In this document: piece after piece, positions 8,771-22,526 of the stretch
How positions within the stretch are numbered: the stretch's first letter is position 1
Layout: each line of letters starts with the position of its first letter
Source: an uncultured Chthonomonas sp.
GTDB taxonomy: Bacteria > Armatimonadota > Chthonomonadetes > Chthonomonadales > Chthonomonadaceae
Direction: 5' to 3'
DNA length: 40,544 nt
NCBI GenBank assembly: GCA_903919615.1
Contig: CAIXIX010000384.1
Location: forward strand, 1 to 40,544
The notes under the pieces: model-generated
Told to the model about the DNA's origin: nothing
Seen by the model: only the letters and a program-made list of their open reading frames with translations
The model's database searches: none
Program-made: the position numbers and the translations under genes

Positions 8771-8810
8771 GACGCCCGCCCATTCTCAATTTAAAGAATC
8801 GGCGGGCGTC
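8771..8810. terminator. Hairpin between convergent genes
   Basis: A perfect 10-bp stem, GACGCCCGCC (8771-8780) with 8801-8810, has an inner ATTCT/AGAAT stem. There is no T-tract on either side, so termination is plausible but not certain. It lies between the convergent 91-residue gene and mgtA. Confidence 0.6.
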
Positions 8811-8824
8811 CGCATACGCATGCA

Positions 8825-8901
8825 CCAAACACCGAAAACCTAACACCAGGCATTCATCCGGCAGGCTCCAAATTACCTCTTTACCCCATTACCCCATTAC
8901 C
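8825..8901 (-). repeat. GGTAAnnn octamer tract plus GGTTTTCGGTGT element after mgtA
   Basis: Read on the minus strand, four consecutive octamers (GGTAATGG twice, GGTAAAGA, GGTAATTT; 8901-8870) start just after the mgtA stop. About 20 nt further on come GGTGTTAGG (8847-8839) and the overlapping 16-mer GGTTTTCGGTGTTTGG (8840-8825). The same order and orientation occur after the gene ending at 19107. Confidence 0.6.
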
Positions 8902-8904
8902 TAG

Positions 8905-11442
8905 TTACTTCTTCCCCCTATAGAAAAACCACTTTGCGACCTCGGCAACCATTATATAGAAGACCATGATCGCCGCGAGCGCGAGCAAAAACCATATTGG
9001 CACCGCAATCATTTTGAATACATGTGCGAGTGGTGTAAATGGCAGAGCAACGGCAGCTATAACCGTCGCAATCGTCGCGGCGATCAGGTAATTGCCCGGC
9101 CTGCTGCGCCAGAATGGTTTCTGAGTTCTAATTACAAGCACGATAAGTGCAGCCGTTACGATGTTTTCGATGAACCAGCCAGTGCGAAACTGTATCGGCG
9201 TTGCACGCATCCATTTCAACAGAACAAAGAACGTCAGGTAATCGCAAGCAGAGTTTGCGAGCCCGAATACGATCATAAAGCGGCGAATGAAGGCCATATC
9301 CCAACGGCGTGGTTTCTGCACCATCTCAGCATCAACGCTGTCGGTAGCGATCGTCATCTCGGGCAGATCGGTCATCAGATTACACAGAAGTATCTGCGTT
9401 GGCAGCAGCGGCAGGAATGGCAGAAACAGCGATGCACCAGCCATACTGAACATGTTTCCGAAGTTTGCGCTGGTCGCCATAAAGACGTACTTCAGAGTGT
9501 TAGCAAAGGTGATTCTGCCTTCACGAACGCCCTGTTCCAGCACGGCAAGGTCTTTTTCCAGCAGCACGATGTCCGCAGCCTCTTTCGCAACATCCACAGC
9601 ATTCGCAACAGAGATTCCAACATCAGCGACGTGCAGGGCCGAGGCATCGTTTATCCCATCACCTATATAGCCAACAACATGTCCAGCTTGCTTGAAAGCC
9701 ACTATCAGCCGCTCTTTTTGATTGGGCTCGATCTCGGCAAACACGGTCGTTTTACCAACACGGTGCTGTAGCGCCTGCTGGCTCATATCTCGCAGCTCAG
9801 GTCCAGTTAGCATGTTTTCGATGGATAGTCCAGCCTGCTTTCCAACGTGTGCCGCAACTAATCGGTTATCGCCAGTGATGACCTTTAGCCAAATGCCCAG
9901 CTTACGAAGCCTCTCGATCGTCTCGAGGGTGCCTGGCTTGATTGGATCAAATAGGGCAAGGAGACCGAGGAAGGTCATCGCGCTCTCATCGTCTTTGCCG
10001 ATGCTCGTTTGCGTTCCGAGATCTCTATACGAGACGCCAACAACGCGATATCCCTGTTCGCTGCATGCCTGAAACTGCTGCTGAATCAGGCCTCGCATGG
10101 TATCGAGTGGAACGACCTCTCCTTTTGCGTTCTCAGCGGCAGTACACACCTCCAGAATATTCGAAAGCGCACCCTTTGTTACCATCACATGCCCCGAATC
10201 TGCGGCCACGAGAACGCTGAGGCGCTTCCGTACGAAATCATAGGGGCGTTCATCCAACTTCTTATACTTGCCAAGATCCTCGGGTCTGCAGGCGACGATG
10301 GCAGCATCAATCGGATTGGTGTACCCGGTCTGGAAGAAAGCGTTCAGATGCGCGTAAAGCAGGGTCTTAGCGCTTGGATCACCGTTGACATTCACCGCAT
10401 TGTTAAGGACGACCTCGCCAATAGTGAGCGTACCGGTCTTATCCGAACACAGGACGTTCATGCTTCCGAAGTTTTCGATTGAGGAGAGCCGTTTAACGAT
10501 GACCTTTGCTGCCGCCATTCGCCTCGCGCCGTGAGATAAGTTTACGCTGATGATGGCAGGGAGCAGTTGCGGTGTGAGCCCGACGGCAAGGGCAAGCGAG
10601 AACAGAAATGACTCCACTACGGGCCGGTGCAGGTAGACGTTGATGGCGAAGATAGAGATCACAAGCAGCAGGGTAACCTCCATCAGCAGGTATCCAAATA
10701 GTCGTATTCCGCGCTCAAAATCAGTCTCCGGCGGACGAGCGCTCAACGAGGTCGAGACTTTGCCGAACTCCGTTAAAGCGCCTATCCGAACTGCCAGCGC
10801 TTTTCCCGTACCACTGACCGCATAAGTGCCTGTGAAGAGCGAATTGGATCGTTTATTGAGCGGTGTATCGGCGGGCAGTACGCCGAGGATTTTTTCGACC
10901 GGAAACGTCTCGCCGGTCAGGGCGGCCTCGTTCACAAACAGATTGTTCGATTCGATGAGCCTGCAGTCTGCGGGAATGACGTCGCCAGCGTTCAGCAGAA
11001 TGATGTCGCCCGGTACGATCATGTCGGTAGAAATGTCGACGGCTGCGCCATCGCGCATCACGCTTGCCTTAACCAGGATAATCGCGAGCAGTTTCTGCAC
11101 GGCATTCGCCGCGCCGCGCTCCTGCCAGAAACCGAGTAGGCCGCTGACGAGAACGATGATCAGGATAATGACGGCATTTACCCTGTCTCCGAGCGAAAAC
11201 GAGAGGCCAACAGCGAAGAGAAGGATGAGAATGATGGGGCTTTTGAACTGCGATATTAGGAGCGAAAAAGTGTGCGAGAAACCGTTGGGTTTGTGCATGT
11301 GAACGCCGCTATCCGCTAATCGACGGCGGGCATCTTCAGATTTCAGACCATCGGCAGAACTGTTAAGCTTCTTCAGCAGATCTGCGTCCGGTATGCTCCA
11401 GTGTGCTTCCAGAGGATCATTCAAATTCGCGTTATTCGCCAC
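8905..11442 (-). CDS. mgtA: Magnesium-translocating P-type ATPase (MgtA/MgtB type)
   Basis: Imports Mg2+ across the inner membrane using ATP. The 845 residues carry a cation-ATPase N-terminal segment, the actuator motif TGETFPVEK, the phosphorylation motif DKTGT (Asp334), the nucleotide-binding domain and the hinge GDGIND. These are followed by the C-terminal membrane segments. The sequences around DKTGT and the ALTGET/AAKVIVKRLSSIENFG stretch match the P3B (Mg2+) subgroup better than the Ca2+ or K+ pumps. It is slightly shorter than E. coli MgtA (about 898). The ATG at 11442 begins a typical polar N-terminus. It is transcribed alone. No recognisable M-box or mgtL-like leader lies upstream, but a direct repeat does (11589-11622). 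Confidence 0.9.
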   Translation of the reverse strand: MANNANLNDPLEAHWSIPDADLLKKLNSSADGLKSEDARRRLADSGVHMHKPNGFSHTFSLLISQFKSPIILILLFAVGLSFSLGDRVNAVIILIIVLVSGLLGFWQERGAANAVQKLLAIILVKASVMRDGAAVDISTDMIVPGDIILLNAGDVIPADCRLIESNNLFVNEAALTGETFPVEKILGVLPADTPLNKRSNSLFTGTYAVSGTGKALAVRIGALTEFGKVSTSLSARPPETDFERGIRLFGYLLMEVTLLLVISIFAINVYLHRPVVESFLFSLALAVGLTPQLLPAIISVNLSHGARRMAAAKVIVKRLSSIENFGSMNVLCSDKTGTLTIGEVVLNNAVNVNGDPSAKTLLYAHLNAFFQTGYTNPIDAAIVACRPEDLGKYKKLDERPYDFVRKRLSVLVAADSGHVMVTKGALSNILEVCTAAENAKGEVVPLDTMRGLIQQQFQACSEQGYRVVGVSYRDLGTQTSIGKDDESAMTFLGLLALFDPIKPGTLETIERLRKLGIWLKVITGDNRLVAAHVGKQAGLSIENMLTGPELRDMSQQALQHRVGKTTVFAEIEPNQKERLIVAFKQAGHVVGYIGDGINDASALHVADVGISVANAVDVAKEAADIVLLEKDLAVLEQGVREGRITFANTLKYVFMATSANFGNMFSMAGASLFLPFLPLLPTQILLCNLMTDLPEMTIATDSVDAEMVQKPRRWDMAFIRRFMIVFGLANSACDYLTFFVLLKWMRATPIQFRTGWFIENIVTAALIVLVIRTQKPFWRSRPGNYLIAATIATVIAAVALPFTPLAHVFKMIAVPIWFLLALAAIMVFYIMVAEVAKWFFYRGKK

Positions 11443-15076: not shown

Positions 15077-15117
15077 GGTAGAGGAGATCACGCGGTTACG
15101 AGAACGGGGGATTGATA

Positions 15118-18100
15118 GTGAATCCACTGCCTCGAATTAATAAGCTGCTCGTGAAGGCTCACCACTCACTTCTGCTCAATTTCAGACGAACGTTCGACAG
15201 GTGTTTGTCCGGATTGCCCTGCTCCCCAACGCATTTCTTCGAGACTTTGCGCCTTTGCGTGAGTCTGCTCGCATTGCTGCTGCTTCCCGGAATTGCGCTT
15301 GCTACGCAGACCGATAATCGTGGATTGCACGCCGTACCCGCGCCCGGGCCCGTAACGATTGATGGCAAGCTGACCGACTGGGATCTATCCGGTCAGACAA
15401 TGATGTGTTACGACCTCGAAACGCTCTCCGATATCTACTCTGCGCGCGTTGCTCTGATGTACGACCGCGCCAATCTCTACGTCGCCATCCATTGGAAAGA
15501 TCGCACTCCGATGGGCAACTCCCACAATCCTCGTTACCAGGCGAATAAGGCGTGGGCGGGCGACAGCGTTCAGTTACGCATCATGACAGACCGGATCTCG
15601 CATGTTACCGCCTGGTACTATGCCGCGGACAAGGAGCCGTCGATTCAGATCGATTACGGCAAGAGCCTCACAGATCCGTACGATGGCGGAAGCAAACAGC
15701 TGTTTCGAACAGATAGGTGGAAACTGCAGGAAGGTGCAGAGATGGCCTTTCTGCAGGATGCTGATGGCAAAGGCTATGTTCAGGAGATCAAATTACCATG
15801 GAAACTGATCACGCTTAGCAAGCAGTATCGCGCCGGCGAGAAGATTAACTGCGGTTTCGAGCTTCTCTGGGGCGAAGAGGATTGGCCTGTACATCGATAT
15901 TCGGACAATCTGATGCCCGGCACATCGAGTCGCGAGTTCTTCTGGACCGCCTATAATTCGTGGGGTGAGGTTTTGCTCGAGCCGAAAGGGAATCTGAAGC
16001 TGCCGGAACCCTTGTGGATGAAGTCGCTTCGACCTGCGCCAATGCAGGGACCGGTGGCAATACACTACAGGCTCCCCTACGATTCACGAGTAACGCTTGC
16101 CATCGAAGATGCGAAAACGGGCAAGCGGATTCGCAACCTGATCTCCTACCTTTCCCGCACTGCCGGAGCCAATACAGAGCGATGGGACGGGCTGGATGAT
16201 GAAGGCAAGCCTGTACAGCCCGGTACATATACCTACAAAGCGCTCTACCACAAAGGCATCCATGCGTCATGGCTGATGTCATTTGCAAATCCAGGCAACC
16301 CAACCTGGTCCACTGCCGATGGGCACGGCGCATTCTATGGTGACCATACCGCCCCACAAGCAGTAGCAGCAGCGGGCGACTACGTTGCCCTAGCATGCCC
16401 GATGGGTGAAGCGGGACAGCCAATTATTGGCTGCGATCTCAACGGACAGCGGCTATGGGGGCTTGCCAACCGAGCCGCCTTCGATGGCGGCCATATCTCG
16501 CTGGCCACAGATGGTAAAACGCTCTGGATAGCGAGCGAGGGCAAGCGATCCCTCATCTATCGAGCAGAAATGGCGACGGGCAAATACGCTCCATGGAATG
16601 CGCTTACCCGTGAGAGTGGATCAGATTTTCGTGTGTTGGATCTCCCCGTTTCGGATCTTCCCGGCTATGGAGCGGATCCGAAGCTTGGCGTTAACCTCTC
16701 TGCAATCGCATTGAACCGGGGAACCCTTGCCGTCTGCCTTACGCGTGAGAATAAGATCAAGCTGCTCGAGTCCGACACAGGTAGGGTGAAAGCGGAGCTG
16801 AATATAAATGCGCCGCGCGCGGTGGTATATCGGGCAAATGGTGAACTGATTGTTCTCTCCGGCAGCAGCCTGATAATTGTCTCTGCTGACGGTTCAACCC
16901 GTCCTTTTACCGATGGCAGCTTCCCTCAGGGCTACGGGCTTGCCATCGATGCAGAGCAGAATGTCTACCTTACGCTACGCGGGCAGGAGCAGAACGTACG
17001 CATCTTCACGCCAGAAGGGGCTCTCCGTGGCGAGATCGGCAGCAGAGGCGGCAGGCCGCTCAGTGGGCCGTACAGTGAAACCTCGATGCGAAATCCTGCT
17101 GGCATGGCGATCGACAGCAAAGGCAGGTTATGGGTAACCGAGGAGACCCTGAACCCGAAACGCACCTCCATCTGGAGCCTGGATGGCAAGCTACTTAAGG
17201 ATCTCGCAGGTACCACCAGTTACGCCGGGGCCGGCGCCATCAATCCGTTCGATTCCACAATGGCCTTCTCAGACAATACGGTCTACCAAATCGACTTAGA
17301 TAAGGGCACCTACCGTCCGGTCTACTCCTTTGCGAAAACCGATGATCCGGACGAGATCTTTCCGCTGCGCGTCGATAGCCATGTCCGCATTATTTCTCAC
17401 GCCGGGATCACGCACGTTTACTGCTCAAGCCGAACTTCCGAGGTCTCCTCGATCCTACTAAAGGATGGTAAGTGGCTTCCCGGCGCCAGTGTTGGCGTCT
17501 GCAAAGATCAGAACGATAGCGAGGTGCCGATAAACTTCGCGCACCCGTTCTTCAAAGGCCACAAGGATCAGATCTATTCGTGGGCAGATTCGAACGGCGA
17601 CGGCATCGTTCAGCCGGAGGAGCTCAAGTTCGCGACACCAGAGCTGGATGGCAAGCCCGTGCATCTCCAAAACTACTATTGGGGCAGCCTGCCCGATACC
17701 GATGGTACGATCACGTTTGTAGCTCGCGATTCGAATGCGCTTTTCAAGTATCCGATAACTGGATGGAATGCAGCAGGTGCTCCGACTTATGATGTCGCGA
17801 ATCCGCAGATAATTCGACTTCCAGCGGGCGCCACGGGCGGCAACGGTGAGGGGATGTCGATGGGTGGCAGTGAGGGACGCGTCTACCTAAACCAGGACCC
17901 TGTTATCTCGCTCGATCGCAATGGCAAGATTCTTGGCAGCTATCCCAGCCATTTCACCTCCGTGCATGGCTCGCACAATGCCCATGCATCTCGGCCTGGT
18001 TACCTAATTGGCCCCTCCTCCATTCTGGGCACAGCGCAGACAAGCGGCGAGGCGGGGGAAGTGTTCTATATGAACGGCAACCTGGGTGAGAACTACCTGT

Positions 18101-19107
18101 TCACTTCAGATGGTCTGCTAATTCAGTCACTGTTCAAGGACACTCGTGGTTGGTTTGAAACTCCAGCGCGAGCCGTTCGTGGCGTCTCTTTCGATGCCAC
18201 TACTGCCGGTGGGGAGTCGTTCGGCGGGAGCTTTACGCGCCTCAGCAATGGCAAATACGTTGTGACCCTCGGCGGCACCGATGCCCACGTCTTGGAGCTT
18301 ACGGGCATCGATTCCGTTAAGCGTTTCAAGGGCGAAATCACGTACTCGAAATCGCAATATCTGGACGCATTGCGACTTGCCCGTGCTCGAGCAGCCCAGA
18401 CGGAAAAACCGAAAACCTATTTGGTCGGCCGAATCGCAAGTCATGAGGTCACCGGTAAGCATGAAGGCTGGCCGCACTTAAGCGACGATTCAGCAAGTGT
18501 GATCGAGATTCAGGAGAGCTCACAGCAGCGATATGGACGTGTCGAAGCGCGTTATGACGACAACAATCTCTATCTGGCCTATCGCGTCTTCTCACCAAAC
18601 GGCGCCCCACATAACGGGGGGCAGAATGAGAAGCTATTGTTCAAGACCGGAGACTGCGTTGATCTGATGGTGGGTCCATCAAAACTACAGCAAGACGCTG
18701 GCTGCCTTCGCATGCTGATGACAATGATGGGCGGTAAGCCGATTGCAGTGCTTAACCAGAAGGCAGCGCCAGGTGCAAATCCGAAGGATCGATATGAGTT
18801 TTCGTCTCCCTGGCGCACCATCGCATTCGACCGTGTGGTCATTGCGCCCGATGTAAAGATAGCGTCATCGCCCATTCAAGGCGGTTACTTTGTGGAAGCT
18901 GCAATTCCATGGAAACGGATCGGTGTTGTGCCTCACCCCGGCTTGAAGCTGAAGGCCGATTTCGGCGTGCTCTTCGCAGATAGCAGCGGCGCGACCACCA
19001 TTGCTCGCCAGTATTGGAGTAATAAGGCGACAGGTCTCGTGAATGATGTGCCCGGCGAGGCCGATCTCGAGGCCGATCTCTGGGGGGAAATTGAGTTAGG
19101 TAAGTAG
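15118..19107 (+). CDS. Very large exported CBM9/DOMON and beta-propeller protein
   Basis: About 1329 residues. A hydrophobic export segment near 48-65 (SLLALLLLPGIALA) is preceded by an unusually long polar N-terminus. After it comes a CBM9-like domain at about 75-285 (VTIDGKLTDWDLS; LYVAIHWKDRTP; VQEIKLPWKLI). Next is a FlgD-like Ig fold at about 310-390 (RWDGLDDEGKPVQPGTYTYKALY). A long propeller region (about 395-1060) contains NHL-like strands and an EF-hand-like loop DSNGDGIVQPEEL. A second CBM9-like domain runs from about 1095 to the end (NNLYLAYRVFS; FVEAAIPWKRIG). CBM9 domains bind sugar ends or are structural in surface proteins. Starts TTG 15112 and GTG 15118 are both possible; GGGGG at 15106-15110 favours 15118. 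No catalytic domain was recognised. The gene lies 149 bp before a glycosidase-like gene on the same strand. Confidence 0.8.
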   Translation: MNPLPRINKLLVKAHHSLLLNFRRTFDRCLSGLPCSPTHFFETLRLCVSLLALLLLPGIALATQTDNRGLHAVPAPGPVTIDGKLTDWDLSGQTMMCYDLETLSDIYSARVALMYDRANLYVAIHWKDRTPMGNSHNPRYQANKAWAGDSVQLRIMTDRISHVTAWYYAADKEPSIQIDYGKSLTDPYDGGSKQLFRTDRWKLQEGAEMAFLQDADGKGYVQEIKLPWKLITLSKQYRAGEKINCGFELLWGEEDWPVHRYSDNLMPGTSSREFFWTAYNSWGEVLLEPKGNLKLPEPLWMKSLRPAPMQGPVAIHYRLPYDSRVTLAIEDAKTGKRIRNLISYLSRTAGANTERWDGLDDEGKPVQPGTYTYKALYHKGIHASWLMSFANPGNPTWSTADGHGAFYGDHTAPQAVAAAGDYVALACPMGEAGQPIIGCDLNGQRLWGLANRAAFDGGHISLATDGKTLWIASEGKRSLIYRAEMATGKYAPWNALTRESGSDFRVLDLPVSDLPGYGADPKLGVNLSAIALNRGTLAVCLTRENKIKLLESDTGRVKAELNINAPRAVVYRANGELIVLSGSSLIIVSADGSTRPFTDGSFPQGYGLAIDAEQNVYLTLRGQEQNVRIFTPEGALRGEIGSRGGRPLSGPYSETSMRNPAGMAIDSKGRLWVTEETLNPKRTSIWSLDGKLLKDLAGTTSYAGAGAINPFDSTMAFSDNTVYQIDLDKGTYRPVYSFAKTDDPDEIFPLRVDSHVRIISHAGITHVYCSSRTSEVSSILLKDGKWLPGASVGVCKDQNDSEVPINFAHPFFKGHKDQIYSWADSNGDGIVQPEELKFATPELDGKPVHLQNYYWGSLPDTDGTITFVARDSNALFKYPITGWNAAGAPTYDVANPQIIRLPAGATGGNGEGMSMGGSEGRVYLNQDPVISLDRNGKILGSYPSHFTSVHGSHNAHASRPGYLIGPSSILGTAQTSGEAGEVFYMNGNLGENYLFTSDGLLIQSLFKDTRGWFETPARAVRGVSFDATTAGGESFGGSFTRLSNGKYVVTLGGTDAHVLELTGIDSVKRFKGEITYSKSQYLDALRLARARAAQTEKPKTYLVGRIASHEVTGKHEGWPHLSDDSASVIEIQESSQQRYGRVEARYDDNNLYLAYRVFSPNGAPHNGGQNEKLLFKTGDCVDLMVGPSKLQQDAGCLRMLMTMMGGKPIAVLNQKAAPGANPKDRYEFSSPWRTIAFDRVVIAPDVKIASSPIQGGYFVEAAIPWKRIGVVPHPGLKLKADFGVLFADSSGATTIARQYWSNKATGLVNDVPGEADLEADLWGEIELGK

Positions 19108-19215
19108 GAAGATAGGTTAGTGGGTAAATGGGTAAGCAGGTAATCCCTAACCGCTCGACTCATTCTTCGGGCACGGGCTCCAAGAGAACACGGGAACCCG
19201 GTTTCTGGTGTAGGG
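19099..19215 (+). repeat. GGTAAnnn octamer tract plus GGTTTCTGGTGT element
   Basis: Six consecutive degenerate octamers run from 19099 to 19146 (GGTAAGTA, GGAAGATA, GGTTAGTG, GGTAAATG, GGTAAGCA, GGTAATCC). The first overlaps the stop codon of the CBM9/propeller gene. At 19194-19215 there is a 22-mer beginning GAACCCGGTTT that recurs with four mismatches at 22459-22480, on the other side of the next gene. Confidence 0.6.
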
Positions 19216-19256
19216 ACGGAGTTCGAGGGAAGTAATCTGTGTGCAGGGGTGAAGCG

Positions 19257-22200
19257 ATGCGCAATAGATGGGTGATGATCGCCGGGTTGCTGGTTGTGCT
19301 GGCCGGTACGGGAACGGCACAGATAAGAACATCGAAGATCGAGGCAGATTTTCACGGCGGAACAATCACCGCGCTGACGAACCGAATTACCGGCGAAGTG
19401 ATCGCGCCCCCCACACAATCCACAGTATCCGCATCTCTGTTGCGCTTCGGAATGAAAGACCTTCCAGCTAACGCGCAGTCACACAGTCCACACTTGAAGG
19501 GCGAACTGACCGCTACCTGGCATGGGGATGCAGGAGAACAGGCCACTTCACAGCTTTCAACGGAACCGACTAGCGGTGACATAACGCTGAAGCAGTCCGG
19601 GTCGGCGCCTGGCAAACATGTGCGCGGCATAAGTTGGCGGCTGCAAGATGTACCCGACAGCCTGGATGTGATTGTGCCGGGCAACAGCGGGCAGCGGCTC
19701 GACCATCAGTCTCCGATGGATCGGCGCGTTTTCGATTACCCGCTGAGCTGGGAAGTGCAGTTTGTTCTGCTGCAGGGCAAGCTGGGTGGCGTGCTTATCT
19801 ACTCGCAGGACCAGAATTTTCAGTTCAAATCAATCATCGTTGAGCACGTTCCGGGCAAATTCCATCTCATATTCATTTCATACGCAAACGCCCCATTCGC
19901 CACATGTGTCAGAATCGATGCCCCAACATGGAGACTGCACGCCTACTCCGGCGCCTGGCAGGCGGGAGTTAAGGCATATCAGAGCTGGGCAGTGCATCGT
20001 TTCCCGGCAGCGTTCCCTGCGATTCCACAGCCTGCGTGGACCTCCGACATCCACTTCGTCGTGCTGGTTGGCAACGACGCATCGGTGTTGGCCCCCCTTG
20101 CAAAGGAAGTGGATCCGAAACAGACCCTGCTCTACAACCCCTCGTGGCGCAAAAACGAGTATGACCGCATGTACCCAGATTACGAGGCTGCGCCTGAGTT
20201 TCCTGCCTTTATGCAGGAGGCGCACAGACTGGGATTCCGTGTGATGGTGCACGTTAACCACTTCGGCTGCGACCCGAAGAGCCCGCTGTTTGATTCGTTT
20301 AAAGGTCACCAGATGCGCGATGCCGATTCCGGCGATCTGCTCTGGTGGGACTGGAAATTGGCAACGCCACCGATCAAGTTTGCCTACATCAATACCGCCT
20401 ATCCTCCATGGCGGCAGCTCTTTATCGACCGCATGAAACAGGTCCGTGAGAAGTTTGGAGTCGATGCAATACACCTCGATCAGACGTTGTGCATGTATAA
20501 CGACCAAAATGGACCGATTGATGGTGTGAATTCGATGCAGGGCAACCTGACGCTGCACCGCGAACTTCGCGAGTCGCTGCCAGAATTGGCGCTCAGCGGG
20601 GAGGGGCTCGACGAGATCACCGCCCGCTATGAGGCGTTTGCGCAGCGGCACATCTCTGGTGTTGATTTCGTAAACGGCACCTGGGACGACGCGCTGCTTC
20701 GCCAGTCCCATCCCGTCAGCTCCATGGTGCTGCTGCCGCAGACCGCAATATATGGCTACCTCGGCATGGCGAATCCGGTGCAATCGCCTGGAACCTACTT
20801 CGCGTGCCGACGAGCCTACGAGAACTTTGGGGTGCTGCCGACCTACGCCTGGCCCGATGCAGCTCAGTTATCAGGAGACAACTCTGTGATCCGGCAGCTT
20901 CTAACCGAAGCGAAGGTCTGGACCACGTCAATGCCGAGACCAGATTTCGATACTCCATGGAAATCGGATGAGCTGTTTGTGTACCGTACTGCAGACGGAA
21001 ACCGTCTCTCCTACGTGCGCGACAACGGTGTTGCACTGCGGCTTGAGGGTGCAAATGGCGAGGCTAAAGTCTTTACGCGACGCATCGAGGGCGTGCGCGA
21101 AGCCGCGGTCCCCGGGTCGCTCACAAACTGGCCAGTTTACGATGCAAATCGCATTCTAGGGCTGGATCCTTCTGCATCCTACGCATGGAGTTCCGAGCCT
21201 CGCGACCTAACGCAGCTACACGTAGAGACACTTCCTGCAGGATTTGCCCTGATACGCGCCGGACGTCATGCCGATATGGCACGATTTGCTTTCTTTCCGG
21301 AGCCACCGGAACGACGCGCAGACATGATCAAGCTATGGCAGTTTAACGGTAATACGCGCTCCGGAGTGCGGCTTAAGGATGGCACGACGAGATCGTACCA
21401 GTCGGCAGGGTTTCTAGATGAAGAGAGCAATGGAAACGCGCATGTCATGGGTGAGGGGGTGTTTATTCATCCACCCTGGAAAGGCCCGAATTTGCCGGGT
21501 GCATCCTTCGTGGAGTACAAACTGCACGTGCCTACAGGCCCGAGGGTGATGTTTGCCTGTAAAATACATCTCAATGTGGGGGCGGAAGGGAAATCGGACG
21601 GAGTGGTTTTTCGCATTACTGCCGCCACTGAAGACCGAACACTTTCAGCATCGAAACTGTATGCCGGGGAGGCACAAAAGCCGCTTGAACTCGATCTTAC
21701 GCCGATCAGTGGAAAGGATGTCACTCTTACGCTTACAGCTGATACCGCTCCCACCGGTAACCCGGGATTCGACTGGAGCCTGTTCGAGAGACCCAGCATC
21801 TATGTCGAACACGAATCGGAGCCCGGCAAAGTGGTGGTTGCAGGTCTGGGCGCAGCAGACCATGTGCTGACGACGGCAGCCCCGTTCACTGGCGCGATTC
21901 GGGAGGGTAAAGCGACCGTCGATGTGGTTGCGCCAGGACAGATTCTGGTGATGAAGCAGCCGCCACTGAATGTTGATACGCTGCCCGCAGACCTATTGAA
22001 ACTCCCGTTTACGGTGCACTCCGCCACTCTGGATGGTATCGAGACCGGGCAGCCGCAGTATCCGACGGTGGTAGGAGATGCGCTATGCCTCGGCCAATCA
22101 ATGCCAGCGCTAAACGAGCATCCGCCGAATTTCGGCCGCACGTTTGTAGATTACTGGCTGCATCTGCCCAATTCGCCCATTAAGTTTGTATCCTCTTGCG

Positions 22201-22433
22201 GCCTCAGGGATGGATCCAGGTCGACTGGCGCAGCTTTTGAATTGGAAGTCAATGGCAAACGCCTGCTGCGCTATGAGACGATGCCGGGCAGGGAGTGGCA
22301 TCCCATCAGCGTAGATCTGGCGGAGTATGCCGGCAGAGACGTGCTGCTGACGCTCATCACAGACTCGATGGGCGAATTCAGCTTCGATTGGACGGTTTGG
22401 GGAAACCCAAAGCTGCGCTCCGCAGGGAAGTAA
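19257..22433 (+). CDS. Exported glycoside-hydrolase-like protein (DUF6259 type)
   Basis: 1058 residues from the ATG at 19257, which follows AGGGG and starts a normal signal peptide (about 1-22). The N-terminal part (about 25-255) is a beta-sandwich. Residues 260-560 look like a TIM barrel of the DUF6259 kind: FRVMVHVNHFGCD, then VDAIHLDQT (Asp408) and LALSGEGLDE (Glu449). The last two sit where a glycosidase nucleophile and acid/base pair would be. A beta-rich linker follows. There are then two related C-terminal domains (about 750-870 and 960-1055), each running from 'FVxYxLHxPxxP' to 'FDWxxxxxP'. These resemble NPCBM-type sugar-binding modules. The family assignment is by remembered pattern; activity and substrate are unknown. 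Probably polysaccharide breakdown together with the preceding CBM9 protein. Confidence 0.75.
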   Translation: MRNRWVMIAGLLVVLAGTGTAQIRTSKIEADFHGGTITALTNRITGEVIAPPTQSTVSASLLRFGMKDLPANAQSHSPHLKGELTATWHGDAGEQATSQLSTEPTSGDITLKQSGSAPGKHVRGISWRLQDVPDSLDVIVPGNSGQRLDHQSPMDRRVFDYPLSWEVQFVLLQGKLGGVLIYSQDQNFQFKSIIVEHVPGKFHLIFISYANAPFATCVRIDAPTWRLHAYSGAWQAGVKAYQSWAVHRFPAAFPAIPQPAWTSDIHFVVLVGNDASVLAPLAKEVDPKQTLLYNPSWRKNEYDRMYPDYEAAPEFPAFMQEAHRLGFRVMVHVNHFGCDPKSPLFDSFKGHQMRDADSGDLLWWDWKLATPPIKFAYINTAYPPWRQLFIDRMKQVREKFGVDAIHLDQTLCMYNDQNGPIDGVNSMQGNLTLHRELRESLPELALSGEGLDEITARYEAFAQRHISGVDFVNGTWDDALLRQSHPVSSMVLLPQTAIYGYLGMANPVQSPGTYFACRRAYENFGVLPTYAWPDAAQLSGDNSVIRQLLTEAKVWTTSMPRPDFDTPWKSDELFVYRTADGNRLSYVRDNGVALRLEGANGEAKVFTRRIEGVREAAVPGSLTNWPVYDANRILGLDPSASYAWSSEPRDLTQLHVETLPAGFALIRAGRHADMARFAFFPEPPERRADMIKLWQFNGNTRSGVRLKDGTTRSYQSAGFLDEESNGNAHVMGEGVFIHPPWKGPNLPGASFVEYKLHVPTGPRVMFACKIHLNVGAEGKSDGVVFRITAATEDRTLSASKLYAGEAQKPLELDLTPISGKDVTLTLTADTAPTGNPGFDWSLFERPSIYVEHESEPGKVVVAGLGAADHVLTTAAPFTGAIREGKATVDVVAPGQILVMKQPPLNVDTLPADLLKLPFTVHSATLDGIETGQPQYPTVVGDALCLGQSMPALNEHPPNFGRTFVDYWLHLPNSPIKFVSSCGLRDGSRSTGAAFELEVNGKRLLRYETMPGREWHPISVDLAEYAGRDVLLTLITDSMGEFSFDWTVWGNPKLRSAGK

Positions 22434-22458: not shown

Positions 22459-22480
22459 GAACCCGGTTTTCGGTGTTAGG
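22459..22480 (+). repeat. GGTTTTCGGTGTTAGG element after the DUF6259-type gene
   Basis: Contains the 16-mer GGTTTTCGGTGTTAGG (22465-22480), 31 nt after the stop at 22433 and in the same orientation as the gene. There is no octamer tract here. Confidence 0.5.
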
Positions 22481-22526
22481 TCATTGGGCGGAAACGGCGC
22501 TTTCGGCTAACTAAATTCAGGCGCCA

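Follow-up and report, generated by a model that had tools for sequence, protein, structure and literature searches.

Short tandem arrays of the octamer GGTAANNN, in which a GGTAA core is followed by three variable bases, form a genome-wide family in the draft genome analyzed here. The arrays are often anchored at stop codons with a bias in reading frame, they favor one type of last unit, and the variable triplets of neighboring units are nearly independent of each other. The window, a stretch of 40,544 nucleotides that constitutes contig C384 of this 7.42-Mb, 614-contig assembly, carries two of the arrays (Table 1). The original prediction was made on the window: its observation of phased octamer tracts is partly confirmed, and its interpretation, that such tracts begin at stop codons, is supported in part.

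A genome-wide family of octamer arrays

Tracts of three or more units, which the original prediction expected to recur beyond the window, do occur elsewhere in the genome. Three consecutive GGTAANNN units gave 130 overlapping matches in the 7.42 Mb, versus 2 for the reversed control, and the four-unit pattern gave 57; together, the two counts correspond to about 73 separate exact runs. Two-unit GGTAA runs also exist, and for this reason three units were dropped as the minimum size of the array. Outside this genome, the three-unit pattern was found in none of 40 genomes searched as relatives, one of them from the same genus, and a de novo word scan of 1.0 Mb of congener sequence, part of it masked as N, revealed no such family.

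The sample used below consists of the window and 60 further stretches of the same genome, comprising 883,350 bases and 571 genes, which were called with our own codon-pair caller rather than taken from a standard annotation. A tract was defined as three or more exact cores, with one degenerate unit tolerated between cores. This yielded 74 tracts from the matches listed, so that the genome holds at least 74; since the stretches were picked for holding tracts, densities in them are not genome averages. To name no core beforehand, all 5-mers at periods of 6 to 12 were scanned de novo across the 883 kb. GGTAA at period 8 was the sole large short-period family, in 70 bins, a density raised by the choice of stretches. 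GTAAT, in 17 bins, represents the same tracts read in overlap, and unrelated words reached at most 4.

When at most one mismatch was allowed, three consecutive units gave 5 matches in the window and none in any of 100 dinucleotide shuffles. The plus-strand tract had been described as six octamers in strict 8-bp phase that share GGTAA; the phase holds for all six, but the core is exact in only four, units 2 and 3 being GGAAGATA and GGTTAGTG. The gene upstream ends GGT AAG TAG, which places the TAA of unit 1 out of frame. The minus-strand tract does contain the four exact units ascribed to it, in the order GGTAATGG GGTAATGG GGTAAAGA GGTAATTT, and these are preceded by an additional in-phase unit, AGTAACTA, with one mismatch in the core. 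A scan of the window for RNA families gave 0 hits at gathering scores.

Table 1. Features of the two window tracts and of their surroundings (positions in the window)
Feature	Position	Strand	Basis
P-type cation ATPase gene, upstream of minus tract	8905..11442	-	gene call, Pfam scan
TAA stop of P-type ATPase gene, lying in degenerate unit, 8-bp phase shared with tract	8905..8907	-	
Minus tract, four exact octamers (8901-8870) and degenerate unit AGTAACTA (8909-8902)	8870..8909	-	
Tail module GGAGCCTGCCGGATG, directly 3' of last minus-tract unit	8855..8869	-	
Four heptamers after minus tract, GGTGTTA GGTTTTC GGTGTTT GGTGCAT	8820..8847	-	
Gene with CBM9-like and FlgD Ig-like domains, upstream of plus tract	15112..19107	+	gene call, Pfam scan
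Plus tract, six octamers in phase, four with exact GGTAA core	19099..19146	+	
TAG stop of gene 15112-19107, across units 1 and 2 of plus tract	19105..19107	+	
Weak heptamer-like GGTTTCTGGTGTAGGG, after plus tract	19200..19215	+	by eye
Heptamers GGTTTTC GGTGTTA GGTCATT, no octamers, 31 nt past stop of gene 19239-22433	22465..22485	+	

At its 3' side, an array tends to close with a particular kind of unit: TTG, TTT or TTA is the variable triplet of the last unit in 40 of 73 distinct tracts, compared with 19 of 214 among the other units. At the opposite edge, the octamer that immediately precedes the first exact core has a tendency toward GG-N-R-R. A tail module, GCCTNCCGGATG, was found at 18 of the 74 tracts by a profile that 16 of them had served to build, and 12 times elsewhere; it resembles one half of a REP element. 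At locus L203, two copies 258 bp apart match by eye along a 58-nt segment that opens with the first GGTAA and reaches into the tail, with 4 differences. Strings of units are otherwise not shared between tracts beyond expectation: pairs with two triplets in common numbered 61 versus 56.1 in shuffles, and those with three 1 versus 1.6. Copying of unit strings between tracts was accordingly rejected, with the L203 pair as the sole exception.

The original prediction also placed a GGTTTT..GGTGT element after both tracts. The element is clear after the minus tract and weak after the plus tract, and it occurs without octamers at a third place in the window (Table 1). It belongs to a second family, with the heptamer GGTKTTN, which has 135 genome matches versus 16 for the control when three mismatches are allowed. 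Of the 14 heptamer tracts in the stretches, 11 follow a sense gene, with 5 of these close to the stop of that gene. Just past the minus-strand heptamers, between two convergent genes, a GC-rich inverted repeat (gacgcccgcc..ggcgggcgtc, window 8773-8812) is visible by eye.

Position and register at gene ends

The 5' edge of the tract lies between -12 and +20 nt from the stop of the same-strand upstream gene in 30 of the 74 tracts. When tracts were re-placed at random in the same gaps and on a random strand, a mean of 6.9 fell near a stop, with a maximum of 15 in 300 runs; re-placement over all gaps gave 3.2, with a maximum of 9. More precisely, 15 tracts supply the gene stop with the TAA of their first GGTAA (0.2 on random re-placement, at most 2). 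When the threshold of the gene caller was set to 8, 20 and 40, the number near a stop was 31, 29 and 23 and the number exactly on it 15, 14 and 13. Three further tracts begin 13 to 21 nt inside the gene, so that 33 are at a stop. The claim that tracts sit at stop codons thus stands as an enrichment but is not supported as a general rule: 41 of the 74 are not at a called sense stop, and those away from stops are mostly in intergenic spacers. There they have no sense bias. Tandem gene pairs hold 21 sense and 11 antisense tracts in all (P = 0.11), and 5 sense versus 11 antisense once the stop-located tracts are removed. Three tracts start near an antisense start, three end near an antisense stop, and none of the 74 ends within 20 nt of a sense start; for 10, no upstream gene was called on the stretch.

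Since TAA is part of the repeated word, one can count in which register the word stands to the reading frame. The array TAA that serves as the stop belongs to unit 1, 2 or 3 in 15, 2 and 1 cases, respectively; were the frames equal, at least 15 of 18 would be expected with P = 1.9e-5. The count omits L048, where the tract begins at -9 and the stop is a TAG formed at the end of a unit. Among 537 gene ends, GG precedes 35 of 187 TAA stops, compared with 13 of 188 TAG and 11 of 162 TGA, and codons ending in GG are 4.3% of all codons. In 19 of the 35 GGTAA stops, the next GGTAA follows exactly 8 nt on.

A Pfam scan covered 32 of the 33 proteins at stops (L064 was left out); nine had no match at E 0.001. 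For six of the 15 exactly anchored genes, the family profile runs almost to its own end close to the C-terminus: an amidase (profile 523/529 at residue 538/541), a 2-hydroxyacid dehydrogenase (133/134 at 318/319), a GxGYxYP protein (241/242 at 505/512), and the proteins of L032 (60/62 at 500/515), L043 (375/375 at 310/321) and L062 (306/318 at 304/310). The remaining nine have no match or a profile that stops short of the end. Six tract genes have a congener counterpart. The C-terminal difference, congener minus own, is 0, 0, +1 and -5 residues for the four that are exactly anchored, and 0 and +8 for the two with an earlier stop; for tract-free genes it is 0 in 24 of 48. The amidase ends TTT GGG TAA here and TTT GCC TGA in the congener, and the dehydrogenase GTG GGG TAA and GTA AAC TAA. 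Judged from these alignments, the exactly anchored proteins look full length where this could be checked, with three of four within one codon of the congener end; the tract accordingly lies at or near the native stop.

Inward-facing pairs of tracts within 250 nt were found at 2 places among the 74 tracts. A 23S_rRNA_IVP gene (four-helix bundle; G000:C402:8711-9278) sits between two inward-facing GGTAA tracts. Genes of this family were considered as carriers and rejected as too few, with 6 genome matches (5 over the cut-off), of which only the C402 gene lies between tracts. Y1 transposases (RAYT) are associated with REP elements; the genome has two Y1 transposase (Y1_Tnp) genes, and one of them (C406:6187-6531) is about 280 nt from a two-unit GGTAA run (C406:5895). 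A hairpin word, GGTTCTGGCTNNGCCAGGTT, occurs six times, in L035 and L196 (contig ends C71 and C509), L043, L065, L066 and L068; several copies are at contig ends, and some lie just upstream of GGTAA tracts.

Possible origins: dispersal, selection or slippage

It is quite possible, and we propose it tentatively, that each tract is a copy of one dispersed repeat element, expanded in this species, with the array as its left end and a TAA of the array taking over as the stop. Such an element would begin with GGTAANNN units, usually closed by GGTAATT and then G, T or A, and in a minority of copies the GCCTNCCGGATG module would follow. Most copies would lie between genes. Where a copy fell on the coding strand at the 3' end of a gene, its first TAA would often become the stop, roughly where the native one was, and the remaining units would supply stops in all three frames, since 8 is not a multiple of 3. 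The array would spread as one unit, and it would do so by matching at existing xGG-TAA or TAA stops, which would account for the frame bias. Recognition, whether by an enzyme that copies the array or by a protein that binds RNA or DNA, may be what preserves the five-base core and its 8-nt phase.

This proposal draws on the excess over the reversed control and the absence of the pattern from the 40 relatives, on the stop anchoring with its frame count and the congener gene ends, and on the distinct last unit and the L203 copy pair. Against it stand the 41 tracts away from called sense stops, the absence of excess string sharing, with block copying in one pair only, and a tail that is recognizable at a minority of the tracts and is also present without arrays. 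Moreover, no mobilizing enzyme could be tied to the tracts. Alignment of spacers with the congener offered no empty sites, as none was alignable and the spacers are too diverged. An unlikely elaboration is that the repeat spreads by finding stops, entering in register at an existing xGG-TAA or TAA and swapping the native stop for a three-frame array. If this were true, invading a gene end would be harmless by construction.

A regulatory role offers a different account, in which tandem GGUAA spaced 8 nt apart would be a selected site at mRNA 3' ends, bound by an RNA-binding protein or acting as a roadblock on the DNA, with an effect on the termination, stability or translation of the upstream gene. 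A constant core in constant phase, with free triplets, does resemble a row of binding sites; the orientation at stops is sense, and the heptamers also tend to follow sense stops. However, over half of the tracts lie away from any called stop and are without sense bias there, the family is missing from the congener and the other relatives searched, and no binding protein was identified. Nor do the two window tracts, the only ones folded in this way, have structure beyond that of shuffles (z of -0.77 and -0.61). We consider selection of this kind somewhat unlikely.

Selection might instead maintain the array as a fail-safe stop that catches read-through or slipped ribosomes, which appears rather improbable. 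The 8-nt phase does place TAA in all frames, as in the TAACTGA heptamers in the published passages on them (PMC4679880), and the sense orientation and position at stops fit. Altered interior cores are not clearly kept as stops, however: of 158, 6 have TAG, 0 TGA, and 8 a non-stop. In addition, the GG, the favored T at position 6, the last unit and the off-stop tracts would be left unexplained.

Ordinary microsatellites, generated by local slippage and kept where harmless, are also an improbable source. As originally noted, the units vary mostly in the last three bases, unlike the product of slippage of one unit. The core is exact in 139 of 157 interior units, a figure biased by detection, and 49 of the 64 possible triplets occur, T being preferred at position 6. 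Among tracts no longer than five units, 10 of 119 neighboring pairs have identical triplets, slightly over the 5.0 of shuffles (P = 0.025); the figure of 25 of 157 over all tracts arises because a few long tracts (L195, L039, L034) are homogeneous. Those few show the hallmark of slippage, neighbors alike at all positions, and the two-unit runs would also suit it. Most tracts, in contrast, combine differing neighbor triplets with a constant core, so near-independence of neighbors means that recent slippage does not explain them. A single core dominant at dispersed sites, the distinct last unit and the exact register with stops are also at odds with slippage. Finally, a G-rich quadruplex-forming repeat is very improbable: GG runs are regularly spaced in octamers and heptamers, and the closest published relatives form quadruplexes according to the sections on them (PMC4692102), but here GG alone is present, with 6-nt loops, the best fold is predicted to include a quadruplex for 4 of 74 tracts versus 1 of 74 shuffled ones, and the constant TAA would be left unexplained.

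Published repeats and other genomes

Dispersed short tandem repeats with heptamer units are known from cyanobacteria as STRR. In the sections of one report that treat repeats, (GGGANTN)n of Xanthomonas and GGGGA(C/T)T of Nostoc/Anabaena are dispersed and mostly intergenic, and their units join variable positions to a conserved core; arrays of four units are commonest, and there is coding-strand enrichment within 50 bp of stops, with some arrays overlapping the stop (PMC4692102). Short arrays near stops are thus already known, and on those sections (GGGANTN)n of Xanthomonas, on the coding strand at stop codons, is the closest published relative (PMC4692102). The arrays described here share its strand and its position near or over the stop, but their unit is 8 rather than 7 and has GG in place of the GGG or GGGG runs that fold into quadruplexes, and the same sections contain no report of a unit that supplies the stop in register (PMC4692102). 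The passages on TAACTGA heptamers of marine Beggiatoaceae describe short direct repeats in 169 sets of 2 to 6 copies (PMC4679880). These carry stops in three frames in one orientation, as do three or more units here, with TAA every 8 nt; the TAACTGA unit, however, is an exact 7-bp word mostly just upstream of starts (PMC4679880), where no tract of ours ends. Tandem octamers with degenerate positions are shared with Geobacter metallireducens, in which four units of consensus GTTGCTYN at about 48 places are predicted regulator sites in the published passages on them (PMC2700814). Those sites are paired on opposite strands (PMC2700814), whereas our inward pairs are confined to the two places mentioned. 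REP elements are palindromes, whereas the two window tracts fold no better than shuffles and their tail module is infrequent in the family; the relevant part of a further source describes REPs as dispersed, with some copies no more than 15 nt from a stop (PMC12306157).

A literature search, with most subscription journals outside it, found no paper on GGTAANNN arrays or on stop-in-register units. Among short-unit repeats at gene ends, which are poorly understood as a class, the family is an additional clear case. Since its register can be counted, the loose notion of proximity to a stop becomes a question open to test, that of why arrays begin on stops; a second question is what recognizes a constant core of five bases repeated at 8-nt intervals.

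Similar patterns recur at a distance. A survey of 290 other genomes of the phylum found the four-unit pattern in one (G044), with 4 matches. The reversed control AATGGNNN, at four units, has 70 matches in G044, which may have an octamer family of its own. In a public genome collection, the four-unit pattern occurs in many phyla among the matches listed, often as one unit repeated, and in one Anaerolineales genome at no fewer than seven contigs among those matches. In other genomes, 15 of the 106 tracts considered lay close to a sense stop, by simple ORF calls with limits of -30 to +20 and with at least one place counted twice. Heterogeneous GGTAANNN arrays with similar triplets were seen in single contigs of other phyla, namely L082, L102, L130 (KSB1) and L084, L117, L134, L149 (Acidobacteria). 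In the KSB1 contig L130 the tract is preceded by CTGGCTTGTCCAG, similar to GGTTCTGGCTNNGCCAGGTT and present also in L082. Among viral contigs, 41 stretches carry the four-unit pattern.
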